From: a virus
IMG/VR virus record: IMGVR_UViG_3300031227_000350
Span: 1 to 26,504 of that record
Strand: one strand, 5' to 3'
DNA length: 26,504 nt
Part shown: piece by piece, positions 1,971 to 9,462 of the stretch
Layout: every line of letters begins with the position of its first letter
Position numbering within the stretch: the first letter of the stretch is position 1
Position numbers and translations under genes: made by a program
The notes under the pieces: model-generated
Databases searched by the model: none
The model's input: only the letters and a program-made list of their open reading frames with translations
What the model was told of the DNA's origin: nothing

Positions 1971-3389
1971 ATGAGTCTGTTTCAGCTTAGCGCACAGCAG
2001 GCCGGCGGGCAGCCCGAAGCCGCCGGACTTGACCCCAGCATCCTGGGGATCGACAACCCGGAAGAGTTGGCGAAGTCCCTGACCGCCGGCCAGCCGTATC
2101 CGGCCGCCGCTCCGGGCAATCTGGCTCCGGTCATGCCGGAGTCCCTCGACGGGACGATCACGTCCCTGTTGTTCAAGCGCAACCATATCCGATTCCAGGA
2201 GAAGCTGGCGGAGATGGGCGTGGACAACACCGTCCACCAGTACGTCCGTCAGTCCAGCTACGGTACTCCGACGCTCGCGTGGGTCGCTGAAGGCGCCATC
2301 CCGAGCGTGGAGTCGGCCCCGTCGTGGAGCCGCGAGTACGCGAAGCTCAAGATCGCCGTGGAGCTGTATCAGGTGACCGACGTCGCGCGGATCGTCAAGA
2401 TTCTCCCGGGCGCCGGCGCGAACGCGCTTGCAGCGAACACCACGGCCGCGTCCCTGAACCTTCTCTCGAAGATCGAAGAGGATCTCTTCTTCGGCTCCGA
2501 GGCTCTGTGCCCGCTCGCCATCGACGGCCTCGCGACGCAGATGATCGCCGCCGCTCCGACGCAGATCACCGATATGCGCGGGGAGTCGCTGACGCAGGAC
2601 AGCCTCGACGAAGGCGTTGCGAACGTCATGGACCGCGCCGGAATGCTCGACGCCGTCTGGATGAGCAACAAGTCCAAGCGCATCCTCGGTCAGCTCGAGA
2701 TCCCGAAGCGCCGGTACGGGCCGAACGAAGTCGGCAACCAGCGCGGCAAGTCCGGCATGCCGATGGCCGGACAGATCAGTCAGGTGAACGACGAGTTCGT
2801 TCCCTACGAGCCCAGCTACTTCCTCCAGTCCGACCGCGGCGGCCCCGTGGGCGCCGTGGGCGCGTCGGCCCCGGCGGCTCCGTTGCTCACCAGCGACACG
2901 GTCGCAGCCGGCGGCGCGGACAACCTCTTCCAGGCCGCGGACGCGGGCAAGTACTACTACGTCGTCGAGGCGTGGGGCCCCAACGGGATCTCCGCTTCCT
3001 TTACCAGCGCGCAGCAGACGATCGCGGCCGGCGAGAAATGCACCCTGGTGATGAACGACGCGGCCATCGCGGACGTGTGGTTCTACAAGGTCTACCGCAG
3101 CTCCAACAATGGCGCCGCGAGCACCGCGCGCTTCATGGTCTCGGTCCCCTTCGGCGGCGTGACCACGATCGTCGATGAGAACGCCGACATTCCCGGTACC
3201 TGCTGGGCGTTCGGCGTGTCCTACGACCCCGAGATCCTTCAGACCGTGCGACTCGGCGTGAAGGCCGCGCGCATCGAACTGGCGCGTCTCGGTACCGCCC
3301 AGCGGTTCATGGTGGTTTCGGTGCTCGGCCTCATGCTGAAGGCTCCGAGCAAGCTGTGGGCCTGGAAGAACTGCGGGCAGTCCCTCTAG
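1971..3389 (+). CDS. Major capsid protein (HK97 fold) with inserted beta domain
   Basis: A 472-residue protein with a purine-rich GAGGAGAGAAGG just before the ATG. Its place after the protease-scaffold and its size fit a major capsid protein. The segment around residues 57-140 (LDGTITSLLFKRNH, then YVRQSSYGTPTLAWVAEG) looks like the E-loop and P-domain region of HK97-fold capsid proteins. Residues 414-455 (FGVSYDPEILQTVRLGVKA onward) read as the returning core strand and helix. Between them, roughly residues 295-412, lies a stretch with a different character (KYYYVVEAWGPNGIS ... VWFYKVYRSSNNG) that looks like an Ig/FN3-type beta-sandwich, probably exposed on the capsid surface. The N-terminal ~50 residues are flexible and may be a cleaved delta-domain. 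The fold assignments are inference from sequence character and context. Confidence 0.85.
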   Translation: MSLFQLSAQQAGGQPEAAGLDPSILGIDNPEELAKSLTAGQPYPAAAPGNLAPVMPESLDGTITSLLFKRNHIRFQEKLAEMGVDNTVHQYVRQSSYGTPTLAWVAEGAIPSVESAPSWSREYAKLKIAVELYQVTDVARIVKILPGAGANALAANTTAASLNLLSKIEEDLFFGSEALCPLAIDGLATQMIAAAPTQITDMRGESLTQDSLDEGVANVMDRAGMLDAVWMSNKSKRILGQLEIPKRRYGPNEVGNQRGKSGMPMAGQISQVNDEFVPYEPSYFLQSDRGGPVGAVGASAPAAPLLTSDTVAAGGADNLFQAADAGKYYYVVEAWGPNGISASFTSAQQTIAAGEKCTLVMNDAAIADVWFYKVYRSSNNGAASTARFMVSVPFGGVTTIVDENADIPGTCWAFGVSYDPEILQTVRLGVKAARIELARLGTAQRFMVVSVLGLMLKAPSKLWAWKNCGQSL

Positions 3390-3471: not shown

Positions 3472-6303
3472 ATGAGCGATATCCCGATGACCGACCGCGT
3501 CTTCCTTTCCGACGCGGAACTCACTCATGCCGAAGCGTCCGATCCGCTTCAGAGCAAGTACAAGCTGATGCGGCGGCGTCAGTCCACCATGGCCGGCAAC
3601 ATCTTCGCGGACCCGTTCGAGATGTTCTCTTGCGACGTGCGCGATCTGGCTGAAGGCCGGACGTACCGCTGCAAGAGCCGCATCGGCCGCGCAGCGCTGC
3701 GGGATGCCATCGAGAACCTCACGGAAAAGTACGAGGACCACCGCGTCTACGTGGTCGGCACCGTTCACGGCGCAGCAGACGTGACGAATACGATCGCGGC
3801 GAGCGGCGGTGACGGAACCTGGACGGCCGCAGCCGGGACCGTAGACGAGTGGACGCAGCTCAATGCGATCCGCGCGGCGGTCATTCTGCACTTCGCGATG
3901 GGGGCGGTAACGCACCTCACTGCCGACGTGATCAACCTGCTCACCTACCCGGCGGCCGGCGCTCAGGACATTTTCGGGCTCCTCAAGCTCGTGAACGACC
4001 TGATCTCCACCCTCCAAGCTCACTGCGCCGACGTCGTCTCGCACACCGTCGCGGACACGGTCAATCCGCCCGACCATGCGCTCCTGTCGAATGGCAACCT
4101 GCTATCGACCGACGACTGGTACGGGGAGTTCGTCTGGGACGCGACGAGCACGGACGACACCTACAGCTTCGACAACGTCTTCACGCAGACGTGGCGACAC
4201 TCTTCCGTGGCCGACTCCGGCGCGGGCCGCTTCGTTCTCACGAACGTGTTGCCCTCCCTCATCTTGATCGAGACCGAAGAGATCGTACACGCCCCGGTGG
4301 CAGACCTTGCCGCCCTGAAGGCGCTGCCCCTCGACGAACTCGACAACAACATGATGATCCTGTGCGCGACGCTGGGCCAGTACCGCTATTCCGCCGCCTC
4401 GACGGCCACCGCCGACGACGTCGGAGTGATCACGCCCACGGCCGCCCCGGCCGGTGTCGGGCGCTTCCTGCGGACTACCCCGTTGCTCATGCCGATCATG
4501 GAGACCGGCAAGGTCTACGTGGACGGTACCCTCGGTTCGGACACCACGGGCAACGGTGCGATCAACAAGCCGCTGGCGACGATCTCCGCGGCGATCACCC
4601 TGGCAGCGGCGGGAAACTCGCTGTTCATCGCCGCCGGCACCTACACCGAAGCGGTGGCGTTCTCGAAGACGCTCAATGTGTTCGCTCGAGGCGTGACCAT
4701 CGTGGGCGCTATCACGATCACGGACGTTCTCTACATGGAAGGCGCGGCAATCACCGGCAACGTGGACTCGGGCCACAATGCCATGCTTCGCGACGTGACG
4801 ATCAACGGCACACTGGACGTCACCGCGGCGCGCGACCTTCTCTATGACAACCTGAGCGTTGTCGGCGCAATCACCCTGTCGAGCACGGGCGCCATGAGCG
4901 GATTCATGCTCACCGCCAGTTCGACGCTCACCAGCACGGGCGGCGCGGGCGTGCATAACCATATCGGCAGTATCGCTGGCGCTCTCATCCTGTCGGGCGG
5001 AGCCAACATCACCCGTCTCGCGGGTACCTCCGTCACAGGCGCGGCGACCTACAGCGGCACCGCCCAGTGCGACCTGGAGGGTTGCAACTTCCTTTCCACG
5101 CTCGACGTGGACGGAAACGGCGCCCAGGTGCGACTCGTAAATACCGACGTCGCCGGCCTCGTCACGGTGGACGGTGCGGCGGGAGCGAACACCCTGACCG
5201 CTCAGGGCGGGGATCTCGAAGGCGGGCTCGTCGCAGACAATGGCGCTGTCGTCTCCTACACGGCCGCCTACGCCGGAAACGTCACGTCGGACAATGCCGC
5301 CTACGTCACCCTCTTGGACGTCTTCTGGAATACCGCCCCGGTCTTCCAGGCCGACACAAACGGCGGGGTCAACATCGCGTACACCGGTCTCTCCAGGATG
5401 CTGGCTACGGGCGGCGCGCTCACGGGAACCCCGTTCCTGCTCGCGGGCGGGAGTATCACCATCGACAACGTCGAGTTCGAGCACACGGGCAACACCGACA
5501 TCATCACGATGTCGGCCGGCGCGTTCTCGATTCGCGGCGGCAGTCTTTCGGGCAACCGGGCCGCAGCAATGTTCGTCCCGGGCGGCGGTGACTTCTCGGC
5601 CGAAAACTGCGAACTGGAGAACGGAAACGCCGACGACGCCATCATCGCGGAACTCGCGCTGTGCCCCAACGTGGGTCTCACCGACGTGACGCTCGACGGC
5701 GTGCTCGACTGCACCGGCGTTGCGGTCGATGCGACCGGCGTGCGTCTCCAGCACCCTGGCCTCTCCGCTCTCATCGCGGCTTCGGTAACGGAGATGAAGC
5801 GTTCGCAGCGCTTCGTCGGCTTCCTAAACGCGGGCGACGAACTGCACGCGCAGTGGACTGCCCCCGGTGGCGCCATTGACGAGAATGCCGGGTTCGGTCT
5901 CGTCGGCGGTGTGGCCGCTGGTATGCCGTGGCCCGCAAGAACGGTCGGAGTCATCGCCACCGATGTGGGACTTGCCTTCACCGTCACCGGCACCGATGCG
6001 GCGGGCAACGTCATTGCCGAAGTAGGCGCGACGATCAACGGCACGGTCTACACCGACGCGGCGTTTGCCAGCATCACTCGATTCGAGTGTGCTTCCCCGG
6101 GCGGCAATAACATCGACCTCATCACCGGCGATGGGGTGTTCCTGGGATGGGACGTCCTGGGCGTGACCCATGCCGCTATCGACGCCGGAGTCTTGGGCCC
6201 GGAGGTTGACGCCGGTCTCGGCGCCTTCGACGTCGAGACCCGGGTGTGGGTGCCTACCACGCTCCCGGCCGGCGGAAGCTACAACGTCGAAGTCGCCGTA
6301 TAG
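3472..6303 (+). CDS. Large beta-helix virion protein, putative head fibre/decoration
   Basis: A 943-residue protein with GGGAG at 3461-3465 before its ATG. It has four parts. Residues 1-94 are basic and include a CSRD-like start that may contact the capsid. Residues 95-200 are a helical module with three HxxxDxxN motifs (His99, His148, His191). Residues about 347-760 are a right-handed beta-helix: VYVDGTLGSDTTGNG, then KPLATISAAI and IAAGTYTE, which is the classic entry to pectin-lyase-like or DUF1565 folds, followed by many short Gly/Thr/Asn/Val rungs. Residues about 790-943 end in TVTGTDAAGNVIAE and GDGVFLGWD, a beta domain often seen in phage structural proteins. Its place right after the capsid gene and before the neck genes points to a capsid-displayed fibre or spike. 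Enzyme activity on a glycan is possible but no catalytic residues were identified. Confidence 0.65.
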   Translation: MSDIPMTDRVFLSDAELTHAEASDPLQSKYKLMRRRQSTMAGNIFADPFEMFSCDVRDLAEGRTYRCKSRIGRAALRDAIENLTEKYEDHRVYVVGTVHGAADVTNTIAASGGDGTWTAAAGTVDEWTQLNAIRAAVILHFAMGAVTHLTADVINLLTYPAAGAQDIFGLLKLVNDLISTLQAHCADVVSHTVADTVNPPDHALLSNGNLLSTDDWYGEFVWDATSTDDTYSFDNVFTQTWRHSSVADSGAGRFVLTNVLPSLILIETEEIVHAPVADLAALKALPLDELDNNMMILCATLGQYRYSAASTATADDVGVITPTAAPAGVGRFLRTTPLLMPIMETGKVYVDGTLGSDTTGNGAINKPLATISAAITLAAAGNSLFIAAGTYTEAVAFSKTLNVFARGVTIVGAITITDVLYMEGAAITGNVDSGHNAMLRDVTINGTLDVTAARDLLYDNLSVVGAITLSSTGAMSGFMLTASSTLTSTGGAGVHNHIGSIAGALILSGGANITRLAGTSVTGAATYSGTAQCDLEGCNFLSTLDVDGNGAQVRLVNTDVAGLVTVDGAAGANTLTAQGGDLEGGLVADNGAVVSYTAAYAGNVTSDNAAYVTLLDVFWNTAPVFQADTNGGVNIAYTGLSRMLATGGALTGTPFLLAGGSITIDNVEFEHTGNTDIITMSAGAFSIRGGSLSGNRAAAMFVPGGGDFSAENCELENGNADDAIIAELALCPNVGLTDVTLDGVLDCTGVAVDATGVRLQHPGLSALIAASVTEMKRSQRFVGFLNAGDELHAQWTAPGGAIDENAGFGLVGGVAAGMPWPARTVGVIATDVGLAFTVTGTDAAGNVIAEVGATINGTVYTDAAFASITRFECASPGGNNIDLITGDGVFLGWDVLGVTHAAIDAGVLGPEVDAGLGAFDVETRVWVPTTLPAGGSYNVEVAV
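6220..6245 (+). repeat. 26-base exact repeat, copy 1 (in head beta-helix gene)
   Basis: These 26 bases are identical to 10736-10761 in the tail-terminator candidate, and both are read in the same codon phase, giving GAFDVETRV (the last codon differs at its third base, just outside the identity). The match stops sharply on both sides and the flanking proteins are unrelated. Confidence 0.85.
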
Positions 6304-6360: not shown

Positions 6361-6861
6361 ATGGACAACGCCCGACTTCAGCACAAGCGTGACAGGCAGT
6401 CAGCCTCGCTCGGCGTGGCCCATGGCCGTTCGTTCGACCCTGACGCTGCGGCGCTCGCCGTAGTCGAGGGCGAGCCGCGGGCGTCCTATACCGTCAAGGA
6501 CAAGAACCCGGAGATTGCGGATCGGCAAATGCACCTTCGCGTTGCCACCGCGACCGAGGCGGACCCCAACACGGCGGCTCCCGCGAGCGCGGGCATCTTC
6601 GGGGAGGCGTCCCTGATCTCGGACGTGCTGTGGCACGTAGACCGGCCTGCGGCGGCGACGGCGGACATTTACGTCTGGGCGCTCACCGAAGTCGAGCCCG
6701 GTCTGCACAAGTGGATCCTCGTGGATACGGTTCTGGCTGTCGTCAACCTGAGCGAACGCCGGAGCCCCACTCGCATGCGTCCTGTCTTCTTCCAGTTCGG
6801 AAACACCACGGGTATCACGGCCGGAACCCCGGCAAGCGTGAGGGCGTCGCTCGGCGTGTAG
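6361..6861 (+). CDS. Unknown structural protein, first of a tandem pair
   Basis: A 166-residue protein that I do not recognise, with an AAGGGG site before its ATG. It opens MDNARLQHKRDR, a basic tip, followed by a probable beta-rich body containing ASYTVKDK, VLWHVDR, IYVWALTEVEPG and HKWILVDT, and ends SVRASLGV. It shares this whole layout with the next gene, so the two arose by duplication. It lies between the large beta-helix head protein and the head-tail connector, so a head decoration, capsid-vertex or neck accessory role is a reasonable inference. No signal peptide or membrane segment is visible. Confidence 0.8.
   Translation: MDNARLQHKRDRQSASLGVAHGRSFDPDAAALAVVEGEPRASYTVKDKNPEIADRQMHLRVATATEADPNTAAPASAGIFGEASLISDVLWHVDRPAAATADIYVWALTEVEPGLHKWILVDTVLAVVNLSERRSPTRMRPVFFQFGNTTGITAGTPASVRASLGV
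6472..6504 (+). repeat. 33-base exact match between duplicated genes, copy 1
   Basis: Identical to 6982-7014 in the neighbouring paralog, at an offset of exactly 510 bases, which equals the distance between the two start codons. It encodes EPRASYTVKDK and marks the duplication at DNA level. Confidence 0.85.
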
Positions 6862-6870
6862 GAGCGACCC

Positions 6871-7383
6871 ATGGACAACCCGCGGCTTCAGCACAAACGC
6901 GACAGACGGTCAGCCTCAATAGGCGTAGCCGGCGGTCATTCCTTCGATGCCGACGCGAGCGCTCTCGCCGTAGCTGAAGGTGAGCCGCGGGCGTCCTATA
7001 CCGTCAAGGACAAGCACCCCGCCACGGTCCCGGATCGGATGATGTTCGCGCGCATCGTCGCGGGCGCCGAGCTTGATCCGAACACCGCGCCACCAGCAAA
7101 CGCGGACGTCTTCTGGGAAGCCGCCTTGATCTCGAACGTGCTGTGGCATGTAGAGCTTGGCGCGGGCGTCACCGCAGAGGTGTACGTCTGGGTGCTCACC
7201 GAAGTCGAGCCCGGCCTGGAGAAGTGGATCCTCGTGGATACGCGCTTGGCGATCGAAAGCCTGGAAGAATTCGCGAGCCCCACCCGCATGCGGCCGGTGT
7301 TTTTTCAGTTTGTGTACACAGGGAAACTTCCACCCTTGCCGGGCCCGCCCCCCTCAATCGTGAGGGCCTCGCTAGGCGTTTAG
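6871..7383 (+). CDS. Unknown structural protein, second of a tandem pair
   Basis: A 170-residue paralog of the upstream gene, starting ten bases after it with GGAG in the gap. The opening MDNPRLQHKRDR, the central EPRASYTVKDK, VYVWVLTEVEPG, EKWILVDT, SPTRMRPVFFQF and the final VRASLGV are all shared. By eye about 60% of aligned residues are identical. Differences cluster in the region after VKDK and near the C-terminus, where this copy has a Pro-rich loop (LPPLPGPPPS). Function is unknown. The pair may form a heteromer, or the second copy may occupy a different symmetry position on the head. Confidence 0.8.
   Translation: MDNPRLQHKRDRRSASIGVAGGHSFDADASALAVAEGEPRASYTVKDKHPATVPDRMMFARIVAGAELDPNTAPPANADVFWEAALISNVLWHVELGAGVTAEVYVWVLTEVEPGLEKWILVDTRLAIESLEEFASPTRMRPVFFQFVYTGKLPPLPGPPPSIVRASLGV
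6982..7014 (+). repeat. 33-base exact match between duplicated genes, copy 2
   Basis: Identical to 6472-6504 and in the same codon phase. A second long near-identity lies further on, covering the LTEVEPG to KWILVDT codons in both genes. Confidence 0.85.
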
Positions 7384-7391
7384 GAGCGGCC

Positions 7392-8615
7392 ATGGCGACA
7401 TTCCCGATCAGCGCCGAATGGCTCCTGAAGGTCTACCTCGAGGGCGTCACCGTCACGAACGACGAGGGCAAGCAATTCTCGCGCGCCCTGTACGATCACG
7501 GGATCCGCTCGGCCGTCGAGCGGATTGAGGCGCAGTGCTCCATTCGCCTCGCACCCCGAGTGGTGAGTGAGCGCCATGACCGTTTCGACGCCATGGGGCG
7601 GGAATTCAGCCACCTCAAAGCCATGGAACGGCCCATGTACCTCGACGGGTCGCAGCCGCTAGAGATGGCCTTCATGCTGGGGCACCGTCCCCTTTTCCTT
7701 GTTCCGGAGGACTGGATAAATTGCAATGACGAGAAGGCGGGCATCGTCGAGCTGATCCCTGTGAGCACGAATCTAGCGACCCTGCCGGCGACGCAGGGCG
7801 GGAACTGGCTGGGGGTGTTCAACGAGGGCGTGGGCGGGCGCTTCCCGGGGTGGTTCCGGCTCAAGTATACAGCCGGCTTCCCTGTCGGGGATCTCCGCCT
7901 GCTGCACTACGCCGTCCTGGATCTAACCGAGACCTACGAGCGGCGCATGGACGTCATGCAGGCACCGGACGGGTCGCGCACGCGGATCGGACACCGGGCG
8001 GACACCCGGGGTGTACCGGCGATCCATCTTGCGGCCGACACCGCCAACAGCCTGACGCTGCACGGCGGAACCCTCTGGTACGACGTCTCCACGGCGACCG
8101 AGGCGGACCTCTACAGGCAGATCAACGCCTACAAGGCCGCGTTCAATCTGCACATTCTGAGCCTGACGGCCCACGGCGTGACGGATGCGGTGAACGAACT
8201 GATATCGCCGGATGCCACCGACGTGACCACGGCGGCGAACCTCATCAATGAAGCGCTGGCGAACACGCAGGAGCACCTCGACACGGCCGGGAGCGTCCAC
8301 GGGCAGTCCGACACGCAGCGCGCGATCTCGTGGGGCTTCGTCCGGGACGACTACATTCAGCTCCCGGAGATGATTCGAGCGGCCATCGCCATGACCGCAG
8401 GCATCTTGGCGCTTGACCCGGCTGGCGATATCATCGCCGGGGCCGGTATCGCCACGAAGTCGCTATCCATCGATCAGATTTCGCAGAGCGTCGGGACAAC
8501 TGCCAGTGCCACGAACGCAGGGCTAGGAGCCCGCATTCTGAGTTGGGGCAAGCAATTGAAGCCGATCATGCAAGCCATTCGCGGGGAGTACCGCGGAATG
8601 ATGTTCCGGGCGTAG
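7392..8615 (+). CDS. Head-tail connector protein with inserted HxxxDxxN module
   Basis: A 407-residue protein. The ATG at 7392 is chosen because TAGGAGCGG precedes it and the protein then starts cleanly after the previous gene; longer in-frame versions would overlap that gene by about 240 bases. Residues 1-190 resemble head-tail connector/adaptor proteins: ALYDHGIRSAVERIEAQ (32-48), LAPR plus ERHDRFD (53-66), PEDWIN, GIVELIPVS, then PGWFRLKYTAGFP (152-164). The C-terminus (355-407) has TKSLSIDQISQSVGTTAS and GARILSWGKQLK, like the membrane-free C-terminal helical motif of connector proteins. Between them, residues 208-310 form a module with three HxxxDxxN-type motifs (His212, His261, His303; the last is degenerate) shared with the upstream beta-helix head protein. 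It would dock below the portal. Confidence 0.75.
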   Translation: MATFPISAEWLLKVYLEGVTVTNDEGKQFSRALYDHGIRSAVERIEAQCSIRLAPRVVSERHDRFDAMGREFSHLKAMERPMYLDGSQPLEMAFMLGHRPLFLVPEDWINCNDEKAGIVELIPVSTNLATLPATQGGNWLGVFNEGVGGRFPGWFRLKYTAGFPVGDLRLLHYAVLDLTETYERRMDVMQAPDGSRTRIGHRADTRGVPAIHLAADTANSLTLHGGTLWYDVSTATEADLYRQINAYKAAFNLHILSLTAHGVTDAVNELISPDATDVTTAANLINEALANTQEHLDTAGSVHGQSDTQRAISWGFVRDDYIQLPEMIRAAIAMTAGILALDPAGDIIAGAGIATKSLSIDQISQSVGTTASATNAGLGARILSWGKQLKPIMQAIRGEYRGMMFRA

Positions 8616-8631: not shown

Positions 8632-9462
8632 GTGGCAGGGCCGGGAATCACATATCCAATACAGCGCCCCGCGCGCATGACTCCCCGGACGGACTTCCGG
8701 CCGCAGGAGTTCGAGGTTGCGATTGAGGGCTTCGGCTCGCGGTTGCTCTGGGAGCACCACGAAATGTGCCCCTGTACCATCGGGGACGACACGCACAACA
8801 CCGACTGCACGATCTGCGACGGGCGCGGGTACTACTGGACTACCGGGCAGGAGATCCGGGGCATCGTGAACCGCATGAGCGACGCTCCGCGGCTCTACGA
8901 AGACTTCGGGCGCTTCGGTTTCGGCATGGCGTCGATCTCGCTTCACTGGGAGCACGCCCCCGGACACGGCGATCGATACACGGTGCTCGACGGGACGATG
9001 CTGTGGCAAGAACGGGTGACCCGTTCCTCCGCGGACTACGACCGGCTCACGTTCCGCATCGGCCTTATGACCATGGACGTGCTGCGCGGCGGGCTCCCTG
9101 CGTCCGTGACGTTCGGAGTCCGCAAGCTCATCGCGGCAACCGCCGCCGGGGTCGGAGGGGCAGCGCTCAAGGAAGGGACCGACTTCGACATATACGACGG
9201 TTGCATCGACTGGGCGAAGGGTGACGTGCTTGGCACGGCCCCGCCGGCTGGCCGTCGCTATGCGGTGTCCTACTACGCCAGACCGCGCTGGACGGTCTCT
9301 GAGCACGCGCACGCGCTGCGGCAGACCGACACGCAGCTAAAGAGCACGCAGCAGACCCACGGGCCCCTGCCGGTGTCCGTGCTGTGCAAGCTCGACTGGG
9401 GTACGCAGCCCACCGACAGAGGCGGCTGGACGCCGGTGGAGATTCCGGCGGTGGAGCCATGA
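8632..9462 (+). CDS. Zinc-knuckle neck/head-closure protein
   Basis: A 276-residue protein starting at GTG, with GGGAGAG upstream. Cysteines 46, 48, 59 and 62 form CPC-x10-CxxC followed by GRGYYW, a compact zinc-knuckle pattern found in a family of phage structural proteins encoded between connector and tail genes. It continues with GDRYTVLDGT (a beta segment like those in neck proteins), DFDIYDGCIDW, and a final RYAVSYYARPRW plus SEHAHALRQ. A role in head closure or as a tail-completion adaptor is inferred from position and the knuckle. Its last four bases overlap the next start (ATGA). Confidence 0.6.
   Translation: MAGPGITYPIQRPARMTPRTDFRPQEFEVAIEGFGSRLLWEHHEMCPCTIGDDTHNTDCTICDGRGYYWTTGQEIRGIVNRMSDAPRLYEDFGRFGFGMASISLHWEHAPGHGDRYTVLDGTMLWQERVTRSSADYDRLTFRIGLMTMDVLRGGLPASVTFGVRKLIAATAAGVGGAALKEGTDFDIYDGCIDWAKGDVLGTAPPAGRRYAVSYYARPRWTVSEHAHALRQTDTQLKSTQQTHGPLPVSVLCKLDWGTQPTDRGGWTPVEIPAVEP

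Follow-up and report, generated by a model that had tools for sequence, protein, structure and literature searches.

A repeat module in two genes of the window

Why would two genes of different function in one phage carry the same stretch of protein, and what might this stretch do on the particle? The question is raised by the window analyzed here, i.e., a whole stretch of viral DNA of 26,504 nucleotides (IMGVR_UViG_3300031227_000350), in which the genes for the capsid protein, a beta-helix protein, two paralogues, an adaptor, and a phrog_1004 protein follow each other (Table 1). A first-pass annotation had noticed three H-x3-D motifs in a connector, here the adaptor (HLAADTAN at residue 212, HGVTDAVN at 261, and HGQSDTQR at 303), three more in a head protein, here the beta-helix protein (HGAADVTN at 99, HLTADVIN at 148, and HTVADTVN at 191), and a common QxNAxxAAxxLH segment (adaptor residues 243-254, beta-helix protein residues 129-140); all of them lie where it had placed them. 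Its main proposal, that two different genes share a homologous helical module, is also borne out. The module is the only part that aligns significantly between the two complete proteins (BLASTP, E = 5e-7), and its Smith-Waterman score of 109 is far from that of shuffled sequences (mean 32.6, SD 5.8, maximum 70 in 5000 shuffles; z = 13). In addition, a single-repeat HMM built from 12 single repeats of other phages only, with no window sequences in it, finds the beta-helix protein (E = 2.2e-6) and the adaptor (E = 3.3e-5) among 697 ORFs. The window adaptor and the beta-helix protein share a homologous repeat. Behind its module the latter probably forms a beta-helix, as the DUF1565 match suggests.

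Table 1. Features of the window that bear on the repeat module
Feature	Position	Strand	Basis or remark
Major capsid protein	1971..3389	+	phrog_752, E = 3.6e-45; Pfam SU10_MCP
Probable beta-helix protein, P0002, 943 aa, module near N-terminus	3472..6303	+	DUF1565, E = 8.6e-5, residues 355-482; directly behind major capsid gene
P0002 repeat module as modelled, residues 66-208	3667..4095	+	AF2 pTM 0.83; repeat HMM, E = 2.2e-6
Tandem paralogues, 166 and 170 aa, 65% identical	6361-6861 and 6871-7383		Between beta-helix protein and adaptor; no PHROG or Pfam match
Neck adaptor (head-tail connector), P0001, 407 aa, with inserted repeat module	7392..8615	+	phmmer to PDB 8q01_b; phrog_772; alignment
Inserted stretch, residues 163-323, first helix and three His-His-Asp sites	7878..8360	+	Adaptor alignment gap; AF2 pTM 0.81
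Site 1: His201, His212, Asp216, Asn219	7992..8048	+	Conserved in 60/60, 60/60, 59/60, and 53/60 aligned modules
Site 2 and helix 2: Asn245, His254, His261, Asp265, Asn268	8124..8195	+	Conserved in 59/60, 60/60, 60/60, 60/60, and 48/60
Site 3 and helix 3: Asn286, His295, His303, Asp307	8247..8312	+	Conserved in 47/60, 60/60, 60/60, and 60/60; Arg310 replaces Asn
Next neck gene, probable stopper	8632..9462	+	phrog_1004 virion structural protein, E = 2e-14; stopper by gene order only

The neck adaptor and its insertion

The connector matches the phage 812 adaptor (8q01_b) by phmmer (E = 4.7e-14) over residues 12-126 and 344-400, i.e., on either side of the module, and it matches phrog_772 (E = 2.8e-29). 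With its N-terminal and C-terminal parts both homologous to that protein and its gene lying behind the capsid gene and ahead of the next neck gene, it is, by homology and gene order, a neck adaptor of the Staphylococcus phage 812 type. Please note that PHROGs and RefSeq/GenBank call phrog_772, Listeria phage P100 gp19, and their relatives "tail fiber protein"; the label is misleading because the solved homologue is the phage 812 adaptor. This protein (gp96, PDB 8q01) and its Herelleviridae homologues resemble the window adaptor in the homologous adaptor part and in the order capsid gene, adaptor, next neck gene, whereas they carry no His repeat, and a short linker occupies the place of the insertion.

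That the module is inserted in the connector, as had been proposed, is evident from the alignment gap against adaptors without the repeat. Counted against those of SPO1-like, Exiguobacterium, and Listeria P100 phages, the insert is about 160 residues long (roughly residues 163-323) and lies between YTAG and the helix LPEMIRAAI. About 60 non-redundant adaptor homologues in IMG/VR mostly have 2-19 residues at this point, and in around 18 the place is taken by an unrelated beta-rich domain 66-120 residues long; the His repeat is found here only in the window phage and two near-identical contigs. The insertion point is thus, as far as these alignments go, a tolerant one, holding a linker, a beta-rich domain, or the repeat. 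Carriers of the beta-rich insert, which has no significant match in Pfam or PDB, include L150, L161, L164, L171, L174-L176, L178, L190, L194, L195, L197, L213, and L216. No repeat was found in the next neck gene of the window.

The repeat unit and its predicted fold

The first-pass annotation had described one domain of about 105 residues with three HxxxDxxN motifs. Its shared and helical character stands; the single three-motif domain does not, since the module is a tandem array of a unit of about 41 residues, i.e., a helix with N...Y..H followed by H-x3-D-x2-N. The interval between neighboring sites is exactly 41 residues in 165 of 295 cases, and the IMG/VR carriers found by a scan with the window pair show a 41-45 residue repeat. 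The motifs are real as well, but one further invariant His per site had been overlooked, which closes the preceding helix (adaptor His201, 254, and 295; beta-helix protein His90, 140, and 184), so that the site reads His-x(6-11)-His-x3-Asp in 60 aligned modules. Eight residues are invariant in these modules (His201, 212, 254, 261, 295, and 303, Asp265 and 307 in adaptor numbering). Over about 230 repeats both His are conserved in 100% and the Asp in 99%, and the remainder is variable; the aromatic positions and the Asn of the repeat are conserved too, the motif Asn at only about 85-89%.

AF2 models were obtained from alignments of 72 modules (P0002) and 60 modules (adaptor). Three long helices lie at corresponding places in both (residues 73-91, 119-141, and 167-185 in P0002; 169-183, 237-255, and 278-297 in the adaptor), so the predicted structures agree, and apart from isolated bridges both models are all helical, i.e., they are not the beta-sandwich of an Ig-like accessory domain. 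Foldseek gave no match in PDB for either model (best E 4.1, TM below 0.25) and none in BFVD for the one model searched (best E 3.8, TM 0.34). The module is confidently predicted as a three-helix fold unlike the solved ones.

Nothing in Pfam matches the repeat significantly, and PHROG profiles match it only weakly. Pfam matches to RunxI and diacylglycerol kinase were rejected as below the cut-off, and matches of the module profiles to triosephosphate isomerase and other PDB sequences were judged to be chance (E >= 0.06). Although no account of such a repeat came up in a literature search, one may exist; the phage repeat of about 41 residues is apparently unnamed.

A family of carrier proteins

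The first-pass annotation had placed similar repeats in other phage structural proteins, and rightly so: the repeat HMM and wider scans give a family of 94 non-redundant proteins, in each of which 1-27 copies are detected, from small proteins of 69-290 residues to sheath-like proteins of 1500-1900 residues. A tail sheath is split by the module in L008, where the sequence matches sheath proteins before and after it (phrog_165, E = 2.7e-65). In L052 the module comes after a domain of a minor tail protein, and it also lies in large sheath-like proteins of long phage contigs, e.g., P0014, which match tail sheath proteins in their C-terminal part. The homologous sheaths of phage LR745208 and Tunturi_5 have no repeat. 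Among the genes upstream of 24 small or medium repeat genes, six are homologous to the window capsid protein and five to that of a Polyangium prophage, so that a capsid gene precedes at least 11 of the 24, and a few more match other capsid families. Some carriers have no known virion location, i.e., 2000-residue and 800-residue proteins of long contigs. Separate carrier reading frames number two or more in 13 of the 16 phage records searched, the two contigs nearest the window being among the 13, and a single carrier is present in the other three.

In annotated phage records, the only carrier found by tblastn is MW202476.1. Searches with each window module alone against annotated phages, and with a four-repeat consensus against phages and plasmids, gave nothing significant. 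The repeat is common in environmental phages but was found in only one annotated record of the phage collection, which may explain its seemingly undescribed status.

History of the module

Four relatives of the window phage by capsid gene, L060-L063, have a repeat gene behind the capsid gene and an adaptor in which the repeat was not found. On this evidence the repeat probably resided in the capsid-side gene first, and the adaptor copy looks like a later transfer. The first interval is 49 residues long in both window modules and in only 2 of 295 cases elsewhere, which hints at copying between the two window genes; trees cannot confirm it. A sister relation of the two modules was dropped, as the tree join (support 94) vanishes when each module is placed alone. 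Instead of an insertion inside the protein, the L060-L063 adaptors are extended at the N-terminus by about 110 residues.

A possible role on the virion surface

We propose that the array would be exposed on the exterior of the virion, on neck and capsid in the window phage and on the tail sheath in other phages. There it would be an exchangeable decoration outside the core, which may help the particle stick to cells or matrix, or may stiffen it. A surface-exposed accessory role is probable because the repeat lies behind capsid genes, in sheaths, and at a tolerant adaptor point, varies in copy number, and is missing from close homologues; the virion location of the carriers is read here from their genes, and the 2000-residue and 800-residue carriers with no assigned place weigh against this reading. 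The extra domains of sheath proteins are reportedly located at a distance from the tube and not needed for assembly; adhesion or stabilization has been proposed for them (PMC9230969).

Within each repeat, the two His and the Asp would pin the helix end to the following loop, most likely through a divalent metal, and such pinning would let a small repeat fold without a large core. We read the unit as a pinned repeat, with a metal ion or a buried polar network as the pin, because the fixed residues are polar and ligand-like, nearly all the rest is free, and the helices are short and the loops long. That the module holds a metal or oligomer site, as the first-pass annotation suggested, remains a fair idea; for its other suggestion, the anchoring of fibres, the analysis yielded no evidence. 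We regard metal at the His-His-Asp sites as a tentative assignment, somewhat short of an even call; the same residues could also be held in place by a buried network of hydrogen bonds. Taken together, the reading of an exchangeable exterior decoration array pinned by His-His-Asp, most likely with a divalent metal, seems to us evenly balanced between right and wrong. A bolder version, in which phages have spread an undescribed metal-binding repeat fold over capsid, neck, and sheath, with hundreds to thousands of His-His-Asp sites per large virion serving adhesion, stability, or metal delivery, is rather doubtful.

The strongest competitor does without metal: His, Asp, and Asn would form a buried polar or helix-capping network, and the array would be a purely structural, rigid spacer. 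The fixed 41-residue period, the long arrays, and the conserved Asn and aromatic positions all fit it, but the retention of two His and one Asp at 99-100% across very divergent sequences would be more typical of ligands, and we consider the spacer unlikely, if somewhat less so than the next possibility. This would be homotypic docking, in which the repeats of the adaptor and of the capsid-side beta-helix protein bind to one another or to a third protein in common, so that the decorations of neck and capsid are tied together. In most of the records searched, the module would be carried by several proteins of one particle, both window copies share the rare first interval, and an unresolved whisker density surrounds the adaptor in the phage 812 neck (PMC12886913). 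Single-carrier records exist, however; relatives of the window phage combine a repeat gene behind the capsid gene with a repeat-free adaptor, and some proteins are nearly all repeat with 15-21 copies, leaving docking improbable. That alanine-rich helices carrying a short His-Asp motif resemble each other by chance is, for all the alanine-rich composition and an overall identity of only about 30%, already refuted by the shuffles, BLASTP, the independent HMM, and the eight invariant columns across 60 modules, and the probability of this reading is negligible.

Comparison with known virion modules

The exposed decoration favored above resembles Ig-like and carbohydrate-binding accessory domains, which are likewise mobile, occur in several virion proteins, and are absent from close homologues, e.g., the extra sheath domains (PMC9230969) and the carbohydrate-binding modules of 936 lactococcal phages (PMC6669499). 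Exchangeable accessory domains of the virion are thus already known, but those described are mostly beta-sandwiches, whereas the family here is predicted to be all helical, has fixed His and Asp, and is without a significant Pfam match or a PDB fold match. Its repeat turns up in virion proteins of several classes, namely capsid-side proteins, adaptor, sheath, and minor tail protein, among them very large sheath-like proteins on long phage contigs; a role for it, if established, would cover large unexplained parts of jumbo-phage sheath proteins. The sheaths of AR9 and PBS1 are reported to have helical extra domains (PMC9230969); these two phages do not carry the repeat.

The head fibre family phrog_6994 is weakly matched by 24 of 72 modules (best E = 3.3e-5), the window member not among them, and the matches whose positions are given are confined to the helix part of the profile, which has 67 positions; a head decoration role fits. 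On account of these PHROG labels phi29 gp8.5 was examined, a head fibre with helix-turn-helix repeats. Homology was rejected: the module profile finds nothing in the phi29 genome, the resemblance is limited to a short helix, and the inspected gp8.5 stretch lacks the His-x3-Asp motif. The HxH iron sites of T4-type tail fibres (PMC11705849 and references there) are also repeated His-based sites in a virion protein; they belong to trimeric beta fibres, whereas the present site has the different pattern His-x(6-11)-His-x3-Asp in a helical repeat, with a metal that is only putative.

Further carriers

Three proteins of 685-914 residues (L030:4927-7668, L027:5257-7311, and L029:4555-6612) consist of repeat for 83-89% of their length, with 15-21 copies, and are possibly long fibres. 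The Polyangium prophage has the order terminase, portal, major head protein, repeat protein, further genes, and sheath; its 172-aa repeat protein (L071:5854-6381) is encoded directly behind the capsid gene and has relatives in three further genomes from the kin of this prophage (G021, G028, and G070). A 112-aa repeat protein (L073:5878-6213) lies behind a 299-aa reading frame on a contig binned as an Archaeoglobus genome, and a near-identical version of it is found in the viral contig L065.
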